Shown here one piece after another: positions 6,151-23,815 of a DNA stretch of 64,000 bases (its first letter is position 1; the number at the start of each line of letters is the position of its first letter). The DNA is from Moheibacter sediminis. GTDB taxonomy: Bacteria; Bacteroidota; Bacteroidia; Flavobacteriales; Weeksellaceae. The position numbers and the translations under genes are program-made. The stretch covers positions 62,001-126,000 of the forward strand of contig NZ_FWXS01000003.1 of assembly GCF_900176425.1 (NCBI RefSeq), given 5' to 3'. The notes under the pieces were generated by a model. The model searched no databases and was not told where the DNA came from. It saw only the letters and a list, made by a program, of their open reading frames with translations.

Positions 6151-6563
6151 AATCCAAAAAAACCTTTTTTCTTTTTCTTTTTTTCTACACCATGTGCATT
6201 TATTGTGAATTCAATTTTGTTTGAAATAACCTGAAGTGTTTCGCCCCAGCCTGGAAACCCGCCTAAATTTCTGTCATCAATAAATATGTCAGCATTTATT
6301 TTTCGGCTTTGTTTTTCCTGGTCAAAAATTTCTCCTTCAAAACTTGAATTCACAGCATAGAATTCAACACCGTTTTCGCGGCAGAACTCTACAGCATCCT
6401 GCAATTCCTTTCCGCTTCGGTAAGTCCATAAAACCAGTCGATGTCCTTTTGCCATCAATTGTTTGAGGGATTCAAAAGCGAATAACTTCTCTTTGCCGAT
6501 TTTAGGATACGCATCATCAACGACTGTTCCGTCAAAATCGACAGCTATAATGTAACTTCTCAT
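6147..6563 (-). CDS. Small HAD-superfamily hydrolase (BT0820-like)
   Basis: 138 aa phosphatase-like protein without a cap domain. Motif I is DFDGTVV (residues 9-15), the motif II Thr lies in VLWTYRSG, and the C-terminal acidic motif is IFIDDRNLGG. The Lys between them is probably in KQSRKINAD. The substrate is unknown. The protein ends in a run of lysines followed by GFFGL, encoded by an A-rich tract (T-rich on the + strand, 6163-6184), which is a place where slippage could occur. The stop overlaps the map start (ATGA). Confidence 0.85.
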   Translation of the reverse strand: MRSYIIAVDFDGTVVDDAYPKIGKEKLFAFESLKQLMAKGHRLVLWTYRSGKELQDAVEFCRENGVEFYAVNSSFEGEIFDQEKQSRKINADIFIDDRNLGGFPGWGETLQVISNKIEFTINAHGVEKKKKKKGFFGL

Positions 6564-6598
6564 TTGGGTAAGGTTAAATCAAGTGCAAAGTTAAGGAT

Positions 6599-8116
6599 TT
6601 AATTTTTTATCAGTATGTTACCCGTCATTTCCTCAGGAATCTGAATGTCCATTAATTTCAGAATGGTGGGAGCAATGTCACCCAATTTTCCATTTTCCAA
6701 ATTGAATTTATTTTCATTTTGAATTAAAATCAAAGGAACCAGATTGGTGCTGTGCTGCGTGTTCGGCGAGCCGTCCGGATTGGTCATGACATCGGCATTT
6801 CCATGATCGGCAAGGATGAGCGTTGTGTAATCATTTTCCAAAGCCGTTTTTACAATTGCTTCCGCACATTGGTCAACGGTTTCAGCTGCCTGAACAGCTG
6901 CCTGAAAAACACCTGTATGACCTACCATGTCAGTATTTGCAAAATTTAAACAAATAAAATCTGCAGATTTCGCATTGATTTCCGGAATGATGTTTTTGGT
7001 AATTTCAAACGCTGACATTTCCGGTTTTAAATCATAAGTGGGAACATCTTTTGGTGAAGCGCATAGAATTCTTCTTTCTCCTTCAAATTCTTTTTCTCGT
7101 CCGCCAGAAAAGAAAAACGTCACGTGCGGATATTTTTCAGTTTCGGCAATTCGGATTTGGGTTTTTCCGTTTGCTTCCAAAACTTCTCCCAATGTATTGG
7201 GAAGTTCATCATCATTATAAACCACTTCAACTCCCTGGAAACTTTTGTCGTAATTCGTCAAAGTGATGTAACGGATTCCGAGTTTTTTCATGCCAAATTC
7301 ATCAAAGTCTTTTTGTGTCAAAACTTCCGTGATTTCGCGTCCTCGATCCGTTCTGAAATTAAAATTGATGACGATGTCTCCTTCTTCGATCAATCCTTTT
7401 TCATCTATAATTATCGGCCTTAGAAATTCGTCAGAAATTCCTTCTTCATAAGATTTTGAAATGGACTGAATGGGATTTTCGCATTTTTCGCCAAGTCCTT
7501 TTACAATTAAATCATAAGCCAGTTTCACACGTTCCCAGCGTTTATCACGATCCATGGAATAATATCTTCCAATGATTGAAGCTAATTTTCCGGTGGAATG
7601 TTGTGTATGTTCTATCAAATCCTGAATGAATTTTTTCCCGCTGTGCGGGTCACAATCACGTCCGTCTGTGAAAGCATGGATATAAACATTGTCCGTCAAA
7701 CCATATTCAGCCGCAGCATCCAACAATCCAAACAAATGGTTGATGTGTGAATGAACGCCGCCATTTGAAACCAATCCAATGAAATGTACTTTTTTGTTGT
7801 TGTCGCGAGCGAACTGAAATTCGGAATTCAATACTTTTTCTTTGAGAAAAGATTTGTCTGAAACAGCCATGTTGATTCTAACCAAATTCTGGTAAACGAC
7901 TCTTCCGGCGCCTAAATTCATGTGTCCAACTTCGGAATTTCCCATCTGACCTTCCGGCAAACCGACGTCTAAGCCATAAGTAACAAGCGTGGAATTTGGA
8001 TATTTATTGAGACATGAATCGATGAAAGGTGTATTTGCTTTTGCTATCGCTGATGTTTCCGGGTTTGGGTTCAATCCCCATCCATCCAAAATCATCAGCA
8101 GGACTTTGTTATTCAT
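6599..8116 (-). CDS. gpmI: 2,3-bisphosphoglycerate-independent phosphoglycerate mutase
   Basis: 505 aa cytosolic glycolytic enzyme interconverting 3- and 2-phosphoglycerate, using two Mn ions. N-terminal metal site DGWGLN and the phosphoserine motif GQMGNSEVGHMNLGAGR are intact, as are FTDGRDCDPHSG, FNFRTDRGRE and the C-terminal metal motif LADHGNADVM. Length matches the family. It lies 26 bp after recQ, in the same direction. The start is chosen at the MNNKVLLMILDGWG context. Confidence 0.97.
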   Translation of the reverse strand: MNNKVLLMILDGWGLNPNPETSAIAKANTPFIDSCLNKYPNSTLVTYGLDVGLPEGQMGNSEVGHMNLGAGRVVYQNLVRINMAVSDKSFLKEKVLNSEFQFARDNNKKVHFIGLVSNGGVHSHINHLFGLLDAAAEYGLTDNVYIHAFTDGRDCDPHSGKKFIQDLIEHTQHSTGKLASIIGRYYSMDRDKRWERVKLAYDLIVKGLGEKCENPIQSISKSYEEGISDEFLRPIIIDEKGLIEEGDIVINFNFRTDRGREITEVLTQKDFDEFGMKKLGIRYITLTNYDKSFQGVEVVYNDDELPNTLGEVLEANGKTQIRIAETEKYPHVTFFFSGGREKEFEGERRILCASPKDVPTYDLKPEMSAFEITKNIIPEINAKSADFICLNFANTDMVGHTGVFQAAVQAAETVDQCAEAIVKTALENDYTTLILADHGNADVMTNPDGSPNTQHSTNLVPLILIQNENKFNLENGKLGDIAPTILKLMDIQIPEEMTGNILIKN

Positions 8117-8142
8117 TTTATTTGAATTGTATGTTTGTTATT

Positions 8143-10335
8143 TTAATTGGCGATGTCATTGATGAATTTAATCCGCATCAGGCGCAATTCTTCTTCATCA
8201 TAATCATTTTTAAATTCTTTCAACATTTCAGTCATCGAATCACTTTGAGCTTCCATCAAATAATCATGGATTTCTTCTTGCTGATCTTCGTCGAGAATAT
8301 CTTCGATATAATAATCAATGTTGAGTTTAGTTCCTTGATAAACAATGCTTTCCATTTCAGAAAGAAGTTCTGTCATGCTGAGGCTTTTGGCTTTTGCCAT
8401 GTCTTCAAGATTCAATTTTCTATCAACACTTTGGATGATATACACTTTGAAGCTCGATTTGTCAGCTACGCTTTTGATGACCATCTCATCAGGGCGGACG
8501 ATATCGTTTTCTTCAACATATTTCGCAATGAAATCCACAAAAGATTTCCCAAATTTATTAGCTTTTCCTTCTCCCACACCGAAAACATTGGTCAATTCCT
8601 TTATGGTTGTCGGATATTGCATGGTCATATCGTCCAAACTCGGGTCTTGAAATACTGCGAAAGGCGGAATTCCGTGCTGTTTGGCGATTTTTTTTCTTAA
8701 ATCTTTAAGATGTTTAAGCAATGTGTCATCAAATGCTGCCGGTGCAGTCTGAATAGGCTCTGAAGAACCTTCTGTCAATAATTTTTTGAAATCTATGTCT
8801 TCTGCAATCAGGAACTCTTCTTGTTTTTTGAGGAATTCTTTTCCTTTTTCATTTAATTTTAAAGTACCGTAGGTTTCAATTTCTTTGATGAGAAAATCTC
8901 TTACAATCAATTGTCTGACAATACTTTTCCAATGGTAATCTTCTTGGTCTTTGCCACTGCCGAAATAATTTTCTAAATGTAAATTATAGGATTTGATGAT
9001 TGAGCTTTCTTTTCCGGTCAAGATGTTTACGATATCATTGATTTTCAATCTTTGGTTATTCTTTTGAATTACTTCAAGGATTTTTTTGGCGTCATCCTGC
9101 ACGTCGATCATTTTTTTAGGATTGCGCATATTGTCGTCCATATTTGCACCTAATCCATTTTCTTCGTCAAATTCTTCCCCGAAATAATGCAGTAAGAATT
9201 TCCTTCTCGACATAGAAGTCTCAGAATAAGCAACGACTTCGCTTAATAATTGTAGACCAACTTCTCTTTCTGCCACATGTTTTCCTGCCAGGAATTTTTC
9301 GAGTTTCTCAATGTCTTTGTAATCATAAAATGCGAGACAATGCCCTACGCCACCATCACGACCCGCGCGTCCCGTTTCCTGGTAATAGCTTTCCAGACTT
9401 TTGGGCATGTCATAATGAATCACAAAACGAACGTCCGGTTTGTCAATTCCCATCCCGAAAGCAATAGTCGCAACCACCACATCGACATCTTCCATTAGGA
9501 ACATGTCTTGGTGTTTGCTTCTCGTTTTCCCATCCAATCCAGCATGATAAGGAATTGCTTTGATTCCGTTGACTTGAAGCGTTTGGGAAAATTCCTCCAC
9601 TTTTTTACGGCTCAAACAATAAATTACACCTGATTGACCTGAAAACTGGCTGATGAATTTTACGATTTCTTTGTCCTGATTTACTTTAGGACGTATTTCA
9701 TAAAATAAATTCGGACGGTTAAATGATGCTTTGTAAACCTTGGCTTTCTGCATTCCCAAAGTTTTTTGGATGTCTTCCTGAACTTTTGGAGTTGCAGTTG
9801 CCGTCAAAGCAATCACTGGCGCATCGCCGATTTTATTGATGATGTGTTTCAAATTGCGGTATTCCGGTCGGAAATCATGTCCCCATTCCGAAATACAATG
9901 CGCTTCATCTATCGCAAAAAATGAAATTTTTACAGTTTTAAAAAACTCGGTATATTCTTCTTTGGTCAGAGACTCCGGAGCCACATACAGCATTTTGGTT
10001 ACGCCGCTGCGGATGTCGTCCATGACGATTTTTGTTTCGGTTTTGTTAAGTGATGAATTCAAAACATGCGCAATTCCGTTTTCCGAAGAAATTCCGCGAA
10101 GCGCATCAACTTGATTTTTCATCAAGGCAATCAATGGAGACACTATAATTGCTACGCCATCTGAAATCAATGCAGGAAGCTGGTAGCAGAGCGATTTCCC
10201 ACCACCGGTAGGCATCAGTACAAAAACATCTTCTTTATTCAGAAGACTGTTTATAATTTCTTGTTGTTCGCCTTTAAATTGGCTGAAGCCAAAGTATTTT
10301 TTAAGGGAGGCGGTTAAATCGTTATTCATATTCAT
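8143..10335 (-). CDS. recQ: ATP-dependent DNA helicase RecQ (zinc-site cysteines absent)
   Basis: 730 aa 3'-5' DNA helicase for recombination and fork repair. Walker A TGGGKSLCYQ, DEAH box AIDEAHCISEWGHDFRPEY, and helicase motif VI YYQETGRAGRDG are present, followed by a winged helix and an HRDC domain (about residues 530-605) and a C-terminal tail of about 120 aa. The zinc-binding subdomain normally carries four cysteines; here the equivalent region reads SMSRRKFLLHYFGEEFD then GLGANMDDN, with none. The fold is otherwise recognisable, so it is probably a natural metal-free variant. It is divergent from kdsD and is followed closely by gpmI. Confidence 0.96.
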   Translation of the reverse strand: MNMNNDLTASLKKYFGFSQFKGEQQEIINSLLNKEDVFVLMPTGGGKSLCYQLPALISDGVAIIVSPLIALMKNQVDALRGISSENGIAHVLNSSLNKTETKIVMDDIRSGVTKMLYVAPESLTKEEYTEFFKTVKISFFAIDEAHCISEWGHDFRPEYRNLKHIINKIGDAPVIALTATATPKVQEDIQKTLGMQKAKVYKASFNRPNLFYEIRPKVNQDKEIVKFISQFSGQSGVIYCLSRKKVEEFSQTLQVNGIKAIPYHAGLDGKTRSKHQDMFLMEDVDVVVATIAFGMGIDKPDVRFVIHYDMPKSLESYYQETGRAGRDGGVGHCLAFYDYKDIEKLEKFLAGKHVAEREVGLQLLSEVVAYSETSMSRRKFLLHYFGEEFDEENGLGANMDDNMRNPKKMIDVQDDAKKILEVIQKNNQRLKINDIVNILTGKESSIIKSYNLHLENYFGSGKDQEDYHWKSIVRQLIVRDFLIKEIETYGTLKLNEKGKEFLKKQEEFLIAEDIDFKKLLTEGSSEPIQTAPAAFDDTLLKHLKDLRKKIAKQHGIPPFAVFQDPSLDDMTMQYPTTIKELTNVFGVGEGKANKFGKSFVDFIAKYVEENDIVRPDEMVIKSVADKSSFKVYIIQSVDRKLNLEDMAKAKSLSMTELLSEMESIVYQGTKLNIDYYIEDILDEDQQEEIHDYLMEAQSDSMTEMLKEFKNDYDEEELRLMRIKFINDIAN

Positions 10336-15885: not shown

Positions 15886-15917
15886 AAAGGCTTAAACCTT
15901 TTCAGATTTAAGCCTTT
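15886..15917 (-). terminator. Terminator of the T9SS type B operon
   Basis: AAAGGCTTAAA/TTTAAGCCTTT, 11-bp perfect stem with a 10-nt loop, followed by a T run on the minus strand. It closes the leftward operon whose last gene ends at 15938. Confidence 0.8.
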
Positions 15918-15937: not shown

Positions 15938-16984
15938 CTAATAATTTTTAATCAATAAATATCCGGTTATTTTTTCATCACCCAGATAAATGATGTAAAC
16001 ATATGAAGCGCTTGGTAATGGTCTTCCCATGTACTTTCCATCCCACTTAAACTGGTCTGCTGAAGTGATAACTTTGAATAGTTTACCATAGCGGTCATAT
16101 ATTTCAATCTTTGCATTTGGCGCGAGTGTCTGCAGTCTGCTCAAATCCCAAACATCGTTATAACCGTCACCATTTGGAGTGATTGCATTTGGAATGCTGA
16201 TAGTAGTTGCCATGATATAAGTAAAACAAGTGGCATCCCATGTGCGTATCCTCACGATATAAATTCCCTGACTGACTCCGTAAAAAATATTTCCGACCTG
16301 CCATGATTTGATGATGTTTCCGTTAAGGTCTTCGAGCTGGTACTCCAGCTGTTCAACATTTCCGCCGGTATGTTCTACTACGATAGTGTTGTAAGCATCA
16401 GTATTGACCGTGAAAATCGGAAAATCCATCGGAGTGGCTTCCACTGTTTGGGTTGCAGTACAGCCGTTTTGGGTAACCTCAAGGGTATAGCTTCCCGGTT
16501 CTTGGACAGTCAGCAAACGCGTGTTTGCGAGTAATGCTCCGTTGGCATCGTACCATGCATAAGAATCGTAACCAAATCCTGCATTGAACGTAACACTTCC
16601 GCCTTCGGGACAGATGAGTAAATCATTTAATTCATTTAACTCAACTTCATCTCGGAGAGAGATTTCCATTTCGCGGAAATTTTCACAACCGTTGAATTCC
16701 GTAACTCTGAGCGTATAACTTCCCAAAGGTGTTGTACCCCAGTTGATTTCTATGTGATTTCCTGAAGTAGTGATCGGTATGATGGTTCCTGCGAATCCAC
16801 CCGTCATGACTTGCCATGTATAAGTTGAACCCGTCGTCCCGTTTCCGTTGTTCTCGGTCATATCGACCGCAAATTGTTTCACCGCACCGATACACAGCGT
16901 TTGCTGTCCCCGAACCGTGACCGCTCCGAAGAGCAGCACAGTGAGGACAAGTTTTATTGCTTGTATGTTTAGCTTATGAATCAA
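15938..16984 (-). CDS. T9SS type B sorting domain (gliding-motility-associated C-terminal) protein
   Basis: About 348 aa, exported by Sec then the type IX system. The C-terminal type B domain (about residues 262-348) begins NAITPNGDGYNDVWDLSRLQ and ends YVYIIYLGDEKITGYLLIKNY. The N-terminal Ig/PKD-like module (CIGAVKQFAVDMTENNGNG ... GSTYTWQVMTGGF ... INWGTTPLGSYTLRVTEFNGC) is related to the module in the preceding gene. The frame is open to 17086, but that extension overlaps the upstream gene and lacks a signal peptide; TTG at 16984 gives an ordinary one (LVLTVLLFGAVTVRGQQ). Last gene of a three-gene leftward operon. Role probably surface adhesion or motility; inferred. Confidence 0.85.
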   Translation of the reverse strand: MIHKLNIQAIKLVLTVLLFGAVTVRGQQTLCIGAVKQFAVDMTENNGNGTTGSTYTWQVMTGGFAGTIIPITTSGNHIEINWGTTPLGSYTLRVTEFNGCENFREMEISLRDEVELNELNDLLICPEGGSVTFNAGFGYDSYAWYDANGALLANTRLLTVQEPGSYTLEVTQNGCTATQTVEATPMDFPIFTVNTDAYNTIVVEHTGGNVEQLEYQLEDLNGNIIKSWQVGNIFYGVSQGIYIVRIRTWDATCFTYIMATTISIPNAITPNGDGYNDVWDLSRLQTLAPNAKIEIYDRYGKLFKVITSADQFKWDGKYMGRPLPSASYVYIIYLGDEKITGYLLIKNY

Positions 16985-17004
16985 ATTTTGATAATTCTGA
17001 AGAA

Positions 17005-17673
17005 TTATAGTACTTGGATTGGTGATGTAACCGGTGCAGCATTTACTGTTACTGTTGCTGTAACACCAGTCACATTGGTCGTACAAGCGGTAGGGCTGGC
17101 ATCAGTTGCAACCGATGTAATTACAATTGTTTGGTTAGCTGTAACTCCAATGATGATAACATCCACTTCACCTGTTGGTAGAATTGTAGTAGTTTGAACA
17201 CCTCCGCCATTTATAGTGTAGCTTACCACATTTCCTGGTGTCCCTGTAATTGTAAATACAGCATCGTCGCCAGAACAAATTGCTGGAGGGTCTGCAACAA
17301 CAGTTGGAGCATTTGGTCCGGTAACTATTTCAACTGTGAATTCAACAGCAGGATCAGTCTCACAACCTGTTGCATTTGTCTCTATAACTGTAATTGTAAC
17401 AATAGTTCCTACAGCAACACCTGTCCAATCTATATTGGCGGTATTTGAACCAGGAATAATTTGTGTCAATGTTCCAGCAGTTACGGCCCAAGCATAGGTC
17501 GATCCGGGTGATCCGGTAGCTGTTTCATCTCCACTACCTAGAGCAGGATTGTTATCGACAATAAAATTTGTATTTGAGTTTTGACAAACCTCTAAATCAG
17601 CTTGCGCATTTACTACGTATAATACCAACATCAGTATTAACGAAGTGAATAGTTTTAAAGTAGAATTATTCAT
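17005..17673 (-). CDS. Secreted Ig/PKD-like protein with a PVTSPI tail
   Basis: 222 aa, signal peptide MNNSTLKLFTSLILMLVLYVVNAQ. Residues about 28-115 form an Ig/PKD-like module (CQNSNTNFIVDNNPALGSG ... GSTYAWAV ... IIPGSNTANIDWTG ... VIETNATGCE) that parallels the N-terminus of the type B protein downstream. A second Thr/Val-rich beta domain follows (about 120-212). It lacks a recognisable T9SS sorting domain and ends in NAAPVTSPIQVL, nearly the same tail as the gene upstream (PNPVTSPVIPL). It lies 20 bp before the type B gene. The shared tail may be a partner-docking or sorting signal; this is inference. Confidence 0.75.
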   Translation of the reverse strand: MNNSTLKLFTSLILMLVLYVVNAQADLEVCQNSNTNFIVDNNPALGSGDETATGSPGSTYAWAVTAGTLTQIIPGSNTANIDWTGVAVGTIVTITVIETNATGCETDPAVEFTVEIVTGPNAPTVVADPPAICSGDDAVFTITGTPGNVVSYTINGGGVQTTTILPTGEVDVIIIGVTANQTIVITSVATDASPTACTTNVTGVTATVTVNAAPVTSPIQVL

Positions 17674-17705
17674 ATTAATTGGTTTTAATTTTTGTTTATT
17701 ATTTT

Positions 17706-18791
17706 TTATAAAGGAATTACTGGTGATGTGACAGGGTTTGGGTTGACGGTCACTTCATAAAGATTAGATATAAATTGACAGTCTGTTGTATTTGGAGTTC
17801 CATTTAATGGTAGATTGATTGTCATTACACAGTAATAATAATATGTTCCAATTAACGTATTGGAAGGTGTGTGAATATTTGAATTTGTACCAACAGGAGT
17901 GCCGCCTGTTGTATTTGCTATAGTGTTTCTGTACCATTGGTAGGTTACAACATTTGGTTCATCTACAACTTCTAAATCAGTTAGGAGTTCATTTACACAA
18001 ACTTCTTGAGAAGGTATATTTGTTCGAATAGGTAATGCTCCAGTAAAAATTTTAGCATCAAAATCAGAACAGTTTGATGCATTTGACCAATTTCCATTAT
18101 TGGAAACATCAGCAGTATTTAATATCCGAACTAACCATTCCCCTTGTGATATTGAAGTAGATGTATTCCCAGAATAATATCTAAAATTATTATAATCAAT
18201 TGGGGAAGTGATATGATAACATCTTGTATCTGGATGTATATTTGAGTTTCGGTTATGTGCAGAGTTTGTAGTAGAATTCGTTGCTATCCATGTTGATTTT
18301 GTATTATATGCAGTTAATATTCTTCCACTATAAGTAGCATTGTTCCCTGAAGTATTTGTCCAATTACCTCCTTGCATTACAAAAAATTGATCTCCATCTG
18401 CTCGTAAATCGAAAGAGCCTACTGAAGAAGCATTGATATAGTCCCAATCAGGATTTTGTAAATTCGTTGGATTTCCATTTTGATTCATATTAAGCCTGAA
18501 AACTTGTCCTGCAGGGATTGTCCCAGAATTTGTGTTTTTTTGAAATCTAAAAAAACCTTCAGAACTTCCAAATCTATTTGGATTTTGACGTTCCCATCCA
18601 TTATCGGTCAAATCAATCGTAGTTCCATTTGTTATAGGTTTAAATGAAACTAGATAAATTGAATTTTTAATAGTAGGAGAGCAATCGTCAACTATTACCC
18701 CCAAAACCATAACATCCCCTCTATTCAAAGTAGTTTGAGAGATAGCCACAAAGCAAACCAGCAGGTTGATTAATAGTAAAAATTTCTTCAA
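17706..18791 (-). CDS. Secreted protein with lamin-tail-like N-domain and a PVTSPV tail
   Basis: 361 aa, signal peptide MKKFLLLINLLVCFVAISQ. The N-terminal domain (GDVMVLGV ... NSIYLVSFKPITNGTTIDLTDNGW ... GFFRFQKNTNSGTIPAGQV) resembles lamin-tail-like beta domains common in exported Bacteroidota proteins. A C-terminal Ig-like region (VCVNELLTDLEVVDE ... VTYQWYRNT) follows, ending in VTVNPNPVTSPVIPL. Asn/Thr/Ser-rich, as is usual for surface proteins. It opens the three-gene operon; the next gene begins 32 bp downstream. Function not known; surface location inferred from context. Confidence 0.75.
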   Translation of the reverse strand: MKKFLLLINLLVCFVAISQTTLNRGDVMVLGVIVDDCSPTIKNSIYLVSFKPITNGTTIDLTDNGWERQNPNRFGSSEGFFRFQKNTNSGTIPAGQVFRLNMNQNGNPTNLQNPDWDYINASSVGSFDLRADGDQFFVMQGGNWTNTSGNNATYSGRILTAYNTKSTWIATNSTTNSAHNRNSNIHPDTRCYHITSPIDYNNFRYYSGNTSTSISQGEWLVRILNTADVSNNGNWSNASNCSDFDAKIFTGALPIRTNIPSQEVCVNELLTDLEVVDEPNVVTYQWYRNTIANTTGGTPVGTNSNIHTPSNTLIGTYYYYCVMTINLPLNGTPNTTDCQFISNLYEVTVNPNPVTSPVIPL

Positions 18792-18854
18792 TGTGTTAAG
18801 TTGAATTTTAACGCAAAGGTAACACAGAAAATACGATTATTTAAAATTTAATCA

Positions 18855-22669: not shown

Positions 22670-23815
22670 ATGAAAAAGAATGTTTTACTGATTTTAATTC
22701 TGATATCAAATATCGCATTGGCGCAAATTCCAAATGGATATTATAATTCAGCAACCGGTACTGGTTTTCAGTTGAAAACACAATTGCACAATATCATCAA
22801 AAATTTTGATTCCCAAAGCTATAATGCTTTGAGAGACTTGTATGCCAGCAACAATGCAAAAAACGGTTTTAGAGATAGATATTATGAAAATGATTTAACG
22901 ATTTTAGACATTTATTCTGAAAATCCTACCGGACCAGACCCATATAATTTTAGTGCCAACGAAAGCATGGGTTCCGGCGCAAATGAAGGAGATGCGATGA
23001 ACAGGGAACATTTGATTCCACAATCTTATTTTAATGAAGCCTCGCCGATGGTATCGGATGCTTTCCATATATGGCCAACCGATAGTAAAGTTAATGGTTG
23101 GAGAGGGAATTTTTCATTTGGTGAAATCATAAATCCAGATAATGCCGCTCCTTGTAATAGTGGAGCAAACAATCTTCCTTGTAAATCTAAAAATGGAACT
23201 TTGAAAGGTAAATTTGTAGGGAATAACAGCATAACAGTTATGGAGCCGATTGATGAATTCAAAGGTGATGTAGCGAGAGCTTTCTTTTATTTTGCTACTT
23301 GTTATGAAAACAGGATGAGTAATTTTTATAGTACAGGCAGTAATTCTGAAGTAAAAGCAATGTTTGATGGATCAAATAACAAAGTATTCAACGAAACATT
23401 TTTGCAAATGCTTGCGCAGTGGCACATCATGGATCCTGTAAGCCAGAGAGAGCAAGATATCAACGATTTAATTTATTACCAACACCAAAGCAATAGAAAT
23501 CCGTATATCGACCATCCTGAATATGTTCAGCAAATTTGGGACATCACGATGAATACGGATGATATTAATTTCCAAGAAAGAAAAGATATTTCTGTTTACA
23601 ACACAGCAGACAATACGGTTGTTGTTAAATTGGAAAATGATGCAAAATCAATCGAGAATATTTCTGTTTTTGATATGACAGGAAAATTGGTTCAAACTCA
23701 GAAAAATACTTCTAATCAAAAAGAAGTAAGAGTTAAAATTGACAAAAAAGGAATTTACATTTTAAAAACTGAAGGAAAAGGTTTAGAAGTAAACAAGAAA
23801 ATTGTTATCAAATAA
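22670..23815 (+). CDS. Secreted endonuclease I family nuclease with T9SS type A sorting domain
   Basis: 381 aa. Signal peptide MKKNVLLILILISNIALAQ, then an endonuclease I domain (about residues 30-285) with the beta-beta-alpha-metal motif GDAMNREHLIPQSYF and downstream FHIWPTDSKVNGWRGNF. The last ~80 residues (ISVYNTADNTVVVKLE ... ENISVFDMTGKLVQTQ ... GIYILKTEGKGLEVNKKIVIK) are a type A C-terminal sorting domain, so the enzyme should cross the outer membrane by the type IX system encoded further right in this window. Probable extracellular DNase for nutrient scavenging or competition. Confidence 0.92.
   Translation: MKKNVLLILILISNIALAQIPNGYYNSATGTGFQLKTQLHNIIKNFDSQSYNALRDLYASNNAKNGFRDRYYENDLTILDIYSENPTGPDPYNFSANESMGSGANEGDAMNREHLIPQSYFNEASPMVSDAFHIWPTDSKVNGWRGNFSFGEIINPDNAAPCNSGANNLPCKSKNGTLKGKFVGNNSITVMEPIDEFKGDVARAFFYFATCYENRMSNFYSTGSNSEVKAMFDGSNNKVFNETFLQMLAQWHIMDPVSQREQDINDLIYYQHQSNRNPYIDHPEYVQQIWDITMNTDDINFQERKDISVYNTADNTVVVKLENDAKSIENISVFDMTGKLVQTQKNTSNQKEVRVKIDKKGIYILKTEGKGLEVNKKIVIK

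Follow-up and report, generated by a model that had tools for sequence, protein, structure and literature searches.

The window, a stretch of 64,000 nucleotides from Moheibacter sediminis, includes a unit of three genes on the minus strand (15938-18791) that we name A, B and C (Table 1). The genes are separated by gaps of 32 and 20 bases, and each opens like a signal peptide, as judged by eye. A uvrB-like gene on the same strand ends 63 bases before A, so read-through into A is possible. The promoter-like sequence before A is one that we take to resemble the Bacteroidota promoter consensus. C matches the type B model TIGR04131 with an E-value of 4.3e-23 and 81.3 bits (NCBIfam cut-off 35). Neither A nor B matches any NCBIfam model at E ≤ 1 or has CHU_C in the Pfam scan, and thus neither has the domain of T9SS type B proteins; the T9SS type A domain (Por_Secre_tail, TIGR04183) is also absent from both in the Pfam and NCBIfam scans. 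A preliminary description of this locus had proposed a three-gene unit in which A and B end in PNPVTSPVIPL and AAPVTSPIQVL without a sorting domain, and the N-terminal module of B is a paralogue of that of C. The letters and the domain scans agree with the former, and the paralogy is borne out by BLASTP (E-value 5e-07) and by a profile of the B family that matches window C with an E-value of 5.1e-22.

Table 1. Position and composition of the features of the A-B-C unit in the window.
Feature	Position	Strand	Remarks
Promoter-like TAccTTTG before A	18814..18821	-	
Gene A	17706..18791	-	361 aa, TTG start
Domains of A			"GDIV" N-terminal domain (unnamed), weak Ig_7-like module, C-terminal tail; without sorting domain
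Tail of A	17709..17741	-	PNPVTSPVIPL-stop
Gene B	17005..17673	-	222 aa, ATG start
Parts of B			N-module, second Ig-like part, tail; without sorting domain
N-terminal PKD_6-like module of B	17311..17604	-	mature start Q
Tail of B	17008..17040	-	AAPVTSPIQVL-stop
Gene C, T9SS type B protein	15938..16984	-	348 aa if TTG at 16984 is the start (assumed)
N-terminal PKD_6-like module of C	16649..16906	-	proposed seat for the tail of B
Type B (TIGR04131/CHU_C) sorting domain of C	15947..16201	-	
Terminator-like hairpin after C	15886..15917	-	14 pairs, T run

We label the N-modules of window B and C "PKD_6-like" because neither matches PKD_6 (PF19408) at E ≤ 1 in Pfam. Amongst ten homologous proteins scanned, four have a PKD_6 match above the Pfam cut-off and three others have one below it; the module in locus L298 (see below) is also above the cut-off. 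There is no PorP/SprF gene adjacent to the window operon, whose flanking genes are MFS-like and uvrB-like by eye, so that window C is an "orphan" in the sense used in the available part of PMC12618676. The same genome has SprA and two PorP/SprF genes, the latter on other contigs, and in relatives a PorP/SprF gene follows C in all six loci scanned for that neighbour. An exported protein resembling endonuclease I, with what looks by eye like a type A sorting domain at its C-terminus, is encoded elsewhere in the window (22670-23815).

Across the family (148 genomes), the B query matches 13 genomes and the A query 21, many of the matches being single modules in long proteins. Complete operons are found in the genome of the window and in six others: three of those have four genes (G028, G049 and G064) and three have three (G124, G127 and G108, the last with a C that ends early). 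All seven genomes carry a tail on every gene that precedes the type B gene. The genome of the window has a second operon of four genes outside the window (L056, G000:C9:10000-26000, at 6310-9723), with ends TSPIILLNP, TSAIQLVP and TSTITFD followed by the type B gene. This second operon starts with a lamin-tail-domain protein, and upstream of it are short ORFs with repeated ends that look Rhs-like by eye. At L062:4912-5904, a C homologue stops early within its type B domain (..KPVPTDNY), the result of a frameshift, an assembly fault or decay. Five other sampled genomes of the same genus have no match to A or B, and thus the distribution of the operon is patchy. At the level of the order, the B-family profile, which includes tail residues, matches 45 of 395 genomes. 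Many, not all, of the forty order stretches that we collected are A-B-C operons, and they fall in the families labelled f7, f8 and f11 by our tool.

The genes of these operons follow a simple grammar. A has a tail and no N-module, B has an N-module and a tail, and C has an N-module and a sorting domain. The N-terminal part of A varies, and it can be IgGFc-binding, GEVED, lamin-tail, CUB, or the unnamed GDIV domain of the window. Gene order is also variable, with A after C in four loci (L294, L295, L299 and L301).

In other families of the order and the class, the tail typically reads T-x-x-I-[FY]-H-[ND]-stop. Examples from the order are TPPISHN, TQPINHN, TGPIFHN, TGPINHW, TGAIFHY and PGPIIFN. 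The window tails TSPVIPL and TSPIQVL lack the H and the IxH[ND] core, and are of a looser form found in their own family. The two forms differ in how specific they are. Of the 136 ORFs in the class loci held out for the test below, 29 end in I.H.{0,3}, compared to 8 of 1294 background ORFs, that is, ORFs not near a module-first gene (in both cases of at least 120 aa). For 27 of those 29 ends, a module-first or type B gene lies no more than two genes away on the same strand; the remaining two belong, by reading, to further genes of those operons. A looser regular expression that catches the window form matches 167 of the 1294 background ORFs (13%), and 218 of 1601 in another ORF set. In the I.H form, such ends are more common than chance would give; the case for the window tails rests on the homology of the genes and on their position, and not just on the letters. 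Within the family of B, the Ile of the tail is invariant in 13 aligned homologues, being one of nine invariant columns.

We also searched for a DNA pattern, which uses no profiles. The pattern P-I-x-H-N-TAA has 50 matches in 40 of the 118 genomes searched, and the reversed pattern used as control also matches many of the 118. Eleven of the 50 matches end a kept ORF, and nine of these are members of exported operons; the other two are a protein of 604 aa and one that by eye is FecR-like. Tail-like 7-mers are also found in covalent arrays, at positions -13 to -5 relative to the Cys of the internal modules (32/88 compared to about 9% expected, where the 88 cases come from 19 proteins with repeats and are not independent). 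At the level of sequence, the tail resembles the linker that precedes the internal modules of such arrays.

Proteins that, like B and C, begin with the N-module (module-first proteins) mostly follow tail genes. A tail gene is directly upstream of the module-first protein in 20/20 cases in the family and 46/47 in the order, where the exception (L188) has an opposite-strand ORF of 61 aa in between. For a held-out test in the class, we used a profile of the N-module without tail residues on 295 genomes. It matches 184 of them, many of the matches listed being inside long proteins, and from these we took 20 stretches in 17 genomes, chosen mostly for short ORFs. One of the 20 (L309) is without such an operon. 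Of 28 module-first proteins, 20 have a tail matching the regular expression directly upstream. The other eight include three with near-tails (PIIAN in L291, PVYHD in L303 and AITPTN in L304), four B genes that come first in their operon (L294, L299 and L301, in which A is after C, and L305, with no A nearby), and one preceded by an unrelated gene on a short contig (L297). The type B proteins amongst the module-first ones are 13, with an I.H tail upstream of 11 and the near-tails PIIAN and AITPTN upstream of two. All together we have 100 unique module-first proteins, 93 of them with a readable end: 46 end in a type B domain, 43 in a tail matching the regular expression, and four in something else. 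Those four are a protein with a type A (Por_Secre_tail) domain instead of type B and tail genes on either side (L298:4643-5674), an odd end (L292), a broken ORF (L187) and a run of unknown bases (L189).

A tracking of the tail with type B genes, which the preliminary description had proposed to test, is seen in this class of operon and fails for type B genes at large. In the family, order and DNA-pattern loci, 29 of 30 type B genes of 300-480 aa have a loose tail directly upstream, most of those loci having been found with queries that include the tail; the end upstream of the 30th (L061) is TPIQAL. We also scanned named genomes for type B genes irrespective of tails. Among the at least 80 loci listed, the A-B-C operon appears only in L076 and in L129, a named Bacteroidales MAG in which the ends are longer (PTTGNIQSSIKLNRR and PTTGDIVSSVSLSRR) and a PorP/SprF gene follows C. 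These loci include 98 type B genes of at least 700 aa, 54 of which have a same-strand neighbour within 200 bases. The loose regular expression matches two of the 54 neighbours among the loci listed, and by eye neither is a tail. In control loci there are eight such long genes, five of them with a neighbour, and the one match is itself a type B end. We reject a general association of the tail with type B genes. Nor does a short length by itself predict a tail: of the seven type B genes of 300-480 aa among the matches listed for the two sets chosen by type B domain, only L076 has a clear upstream tail, and L129 has the longer variant.

In three genomes of one genus (g40), a one-chain type B paralogue is located directly upstream of A (L197:7705-12159, L199:1-4887 and L200:2543-7042). 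Their lengths are 1484 aa in L197, at least 1628 aa in L199, where the protein begins at the limit of the stretch, and 1499 aa in L200. The end of A and the mature B align to them as one run, as in L197, where VIEVIPPPIVTN continued by QIDTLCFG aligns with VIDVAPPQITSSEDFICFG. A ends at residues 520, 512 and 534, and B starts at 522, 514 and 536 (L197, L199 and L200). Residues 19-353 of C fill the last 335 residues of the one-chain proteins (1150-1484, 1294-1628 and 1165-1499) with 48-49% identity. Correct joins keep 98% (A to B) and 92-94% (B to C) of the summed scores of the parts, compared to 60-61% (A to C) and 73-78% (B to B) for wrong joins. Removing the A tail in L200 lowers the score from 504 to 472, and 200 shuffles of that tail give a mean of 475.5 and a best of 498. 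In the one-chain alignment the tail of A meets the module of B with nothing missing, which places the tail against the module of the chain that follows. The correspondence has its limits: the B part of the one-chain protein has about 617 residues compared to 318 for B, A has no match over its first 60-165 residues, and the B-C joint has 7-11 extra residues. All three cases perhaps go back to one event in one genus. For the other loci, we aligned 42 junctions to covalent arrays with weaker matches, which are uncontrolled and uncounted. Three proteins of 690-713 aa (L211:3843-5984, L212:889-3018 and L213:5249-7321) have strong internal matches to the N-module, preceded by the tail-like NTSVISG or NTSAING, and may be a further covalent form of the joint.

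The AlphaFold model of window C (15941-16906) is good (pLDDT 88), and that of window B is poor (pLDDT 57). A PDB sequence search with the N-module gives weak PKD matches only (KIAA0319L, E-value 8.9e-07). In a Foldseek search with the C model, pieces of Aureispira GhpA (PDB 9fls, 9flp and others) come first by E-value (7.5e-13), with TM-scores of about 0.35 and tied with eukaryotic Ig proteins by VIA-align Z. The matches listed for the C structure searches are generic Ig, with no T9SS CTD structure among them.

The layout, its recurrence, the linkage between module-first proteins and tail genes, and the one-chain proteins with matching junctions are direct observations. The interpretation that we consider probable, reasoned from sequence, is that A, B and C are the parts of a split tandem Ig/PKD adhesin, where each tail seats on the module of the next chain and A and B ride on C. 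The tail would correspond to the segment that, in a one-chain array, leads out of the last strand of a module and on towards its neighbour, ending here in a stop codon, and B and C would present their PKD_6-like module directly after the signal peptide. Once the proteins are in the periplasm, the N-module of B would receive the tail of A, and that of C the tail of B, producing a head-to-tail chain with A as its variable tip and the sorting domain of C at its base. A and B would then cross the outer membrane, or be held at the surface, as riders on C, and a PorP/SprF-type shuttle would anchor C. In the simplest reading, the tail would do in trans what the linker does in cis. We infer the riding on C because A and B have signal-like N-termini and no sorting signal of another kind, and C has a sorting domain. 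In line with this, the secretion control in the part of PMC10994853 at hand is a fusion that lacks a CTD. The adhesion role is putative as well, and strand donation as such is unsupported since in the C model DSSP assigns no strand of its own to the linker that precedes the second module. The preliminary description had suggested that the tail either docks A and B to the type B protein or marks a new sorting signal. Its docking half finds support in a sharper form, in which the partner is most likely the N-module of the next chain (B for A, C for B), because that is where the one-chain version puts the tail and because module-first proteins track with tail genes. Its other half is less likely, as a sorting signal explains neither the pairing with modules nor the one-chain version.

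If the tail were a minimal T9SS sorting signal in its own right, recognised by the translocon or by a shuttle, and A and B were exported without help, this would fit the extreme C-terminal position, which is that of T9SS signals, as well as the recurrence of the tail over the class and the absence of another signal from A and B. There is also a faint likeness between PxTGPI and the cleavage preference of a Prevotella intermedia type A CTD, for PT/GI with a conserved Ile, given in the portion of PMC11969387 available to us. But the short CTDs described in that portion still have 40-51 residues, and the type B CTDs in the accessible text of PMC12618676 need five motifs. The IxH tail is almost exclusively found beside module-first genes, and the one-chain version has the equivalent stretch at an internal position, which excludes a role as a terminal signal there. 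We regard this explanation as quite unlikely. Unlikely too, in our judgement, is that the tail is the remnant of a broken tandem array that just finishes the last domain of A or B, with the proteins acting separately. The one-chain version does show common descent or domain exchange, and the tails do resemble array linkers, but a remnant should decay. Instead, the rest of B has drifted to 25-39% identity, and further still over the class, with the Ile and the final residues conserved, and tails persist in step with their module-first partners. As for a single adhesin gene disrupted by frameshift or misassembly, one-chain relatives have modules that continue across the genes, but every gene comes with a start and a signal-like N-terminus of its own. 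We reject this explanation, to which we give next to no credence, since the split form recurs in many independent genomes.

If A, B and C form a chain as we propose, a broader claim is that T9SS exports or displays a preassembled multi-chain fibre with a sorting domain only at its base, and that the tail is a class-wide docking code through which tips and spacers without CTD attach to a carrier that has the module. This we hold as a tentative possibility, somewhat short of even. The known T9SS type B substrates SprB, Fjoh_3952 and PG1035, with their PorP/SprF shuttles, share with this system the type B domain of C, the PorP/SprF gene after C in relatives, and SprA in the genome of the window; as far as they are described in the text available of PMC9143113 and PMC12618676, those are single chains, whereas here chains without CTD accompany the type B chain. 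The likeness to type V pili (FimA, Mfa1) and donor-strand exchange is in belonging to Bacteroidota, in having ordered subunits, and in a C-terminal segment that enters the next subunit, as it does in those pili according to the available parts of PMC8313007 and PMC4789730 and as it would do here. A-B-C may work like donor-strand assembly, and the place of the tail in the one-chain version fits this. It differs from type V pili in its PKD/Ig modules, its few subunits, and a base with a T9SS domain. No fimbrillin Pfam domain is found in window A, B, C or the relatives scanned, and the window N-termini (..AISQ, ..VNAQ and ..VRGQ) have no lipobox Cys at +1. The one-chain PKD/Ig CHU_C proteins (1484 to 1628 aa) have the same modules, order and junctions, but they are covalent and have extra modules, where here we have three chains. 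The Aureispira grappling hook protein GhpA has a module type in common with C, with no relation shown. We would classify A-B-C, with reasonable likelihood, as a multi-chain T9SS adhesin with docking tails that is type B by its base protein.

In searches of an open-access library, we recognised no description of such a tail, or of riders without CTD on type B proteins, which is weak evidence of novelty as subscription journals and preprints are mostly outside that scope. T9SS cargo is predicted by its C-terminal domain. If the broader claim is correct, predicting secretomes from CTDs alone overlooks an entire type of cargo, and if proteins without CTD ride by means of a tail of about 8 residues, many unnamed exported proteins of Bacteroidota would be surface proteins with a known base. 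The tail and the N-module would provide a simple rule for finding partners, and, next to type V pili and single-chain adhesins, there would be one more way of building composite surface structures whose tips can be exchanged.

Several stretches of families f8 and f11 have the operon adjoining LolA-like, FtsK-like and guaA-like genes (by eye), and a LysM protein is also found beside the operon in one that we scanned. The LolA-like/FtsK-like/guaA-like neighbourhood appears in L190, L196, L198, L201, L202, L207, L214 and others, and its presence in several small genomes suggests a core role of the operon there.
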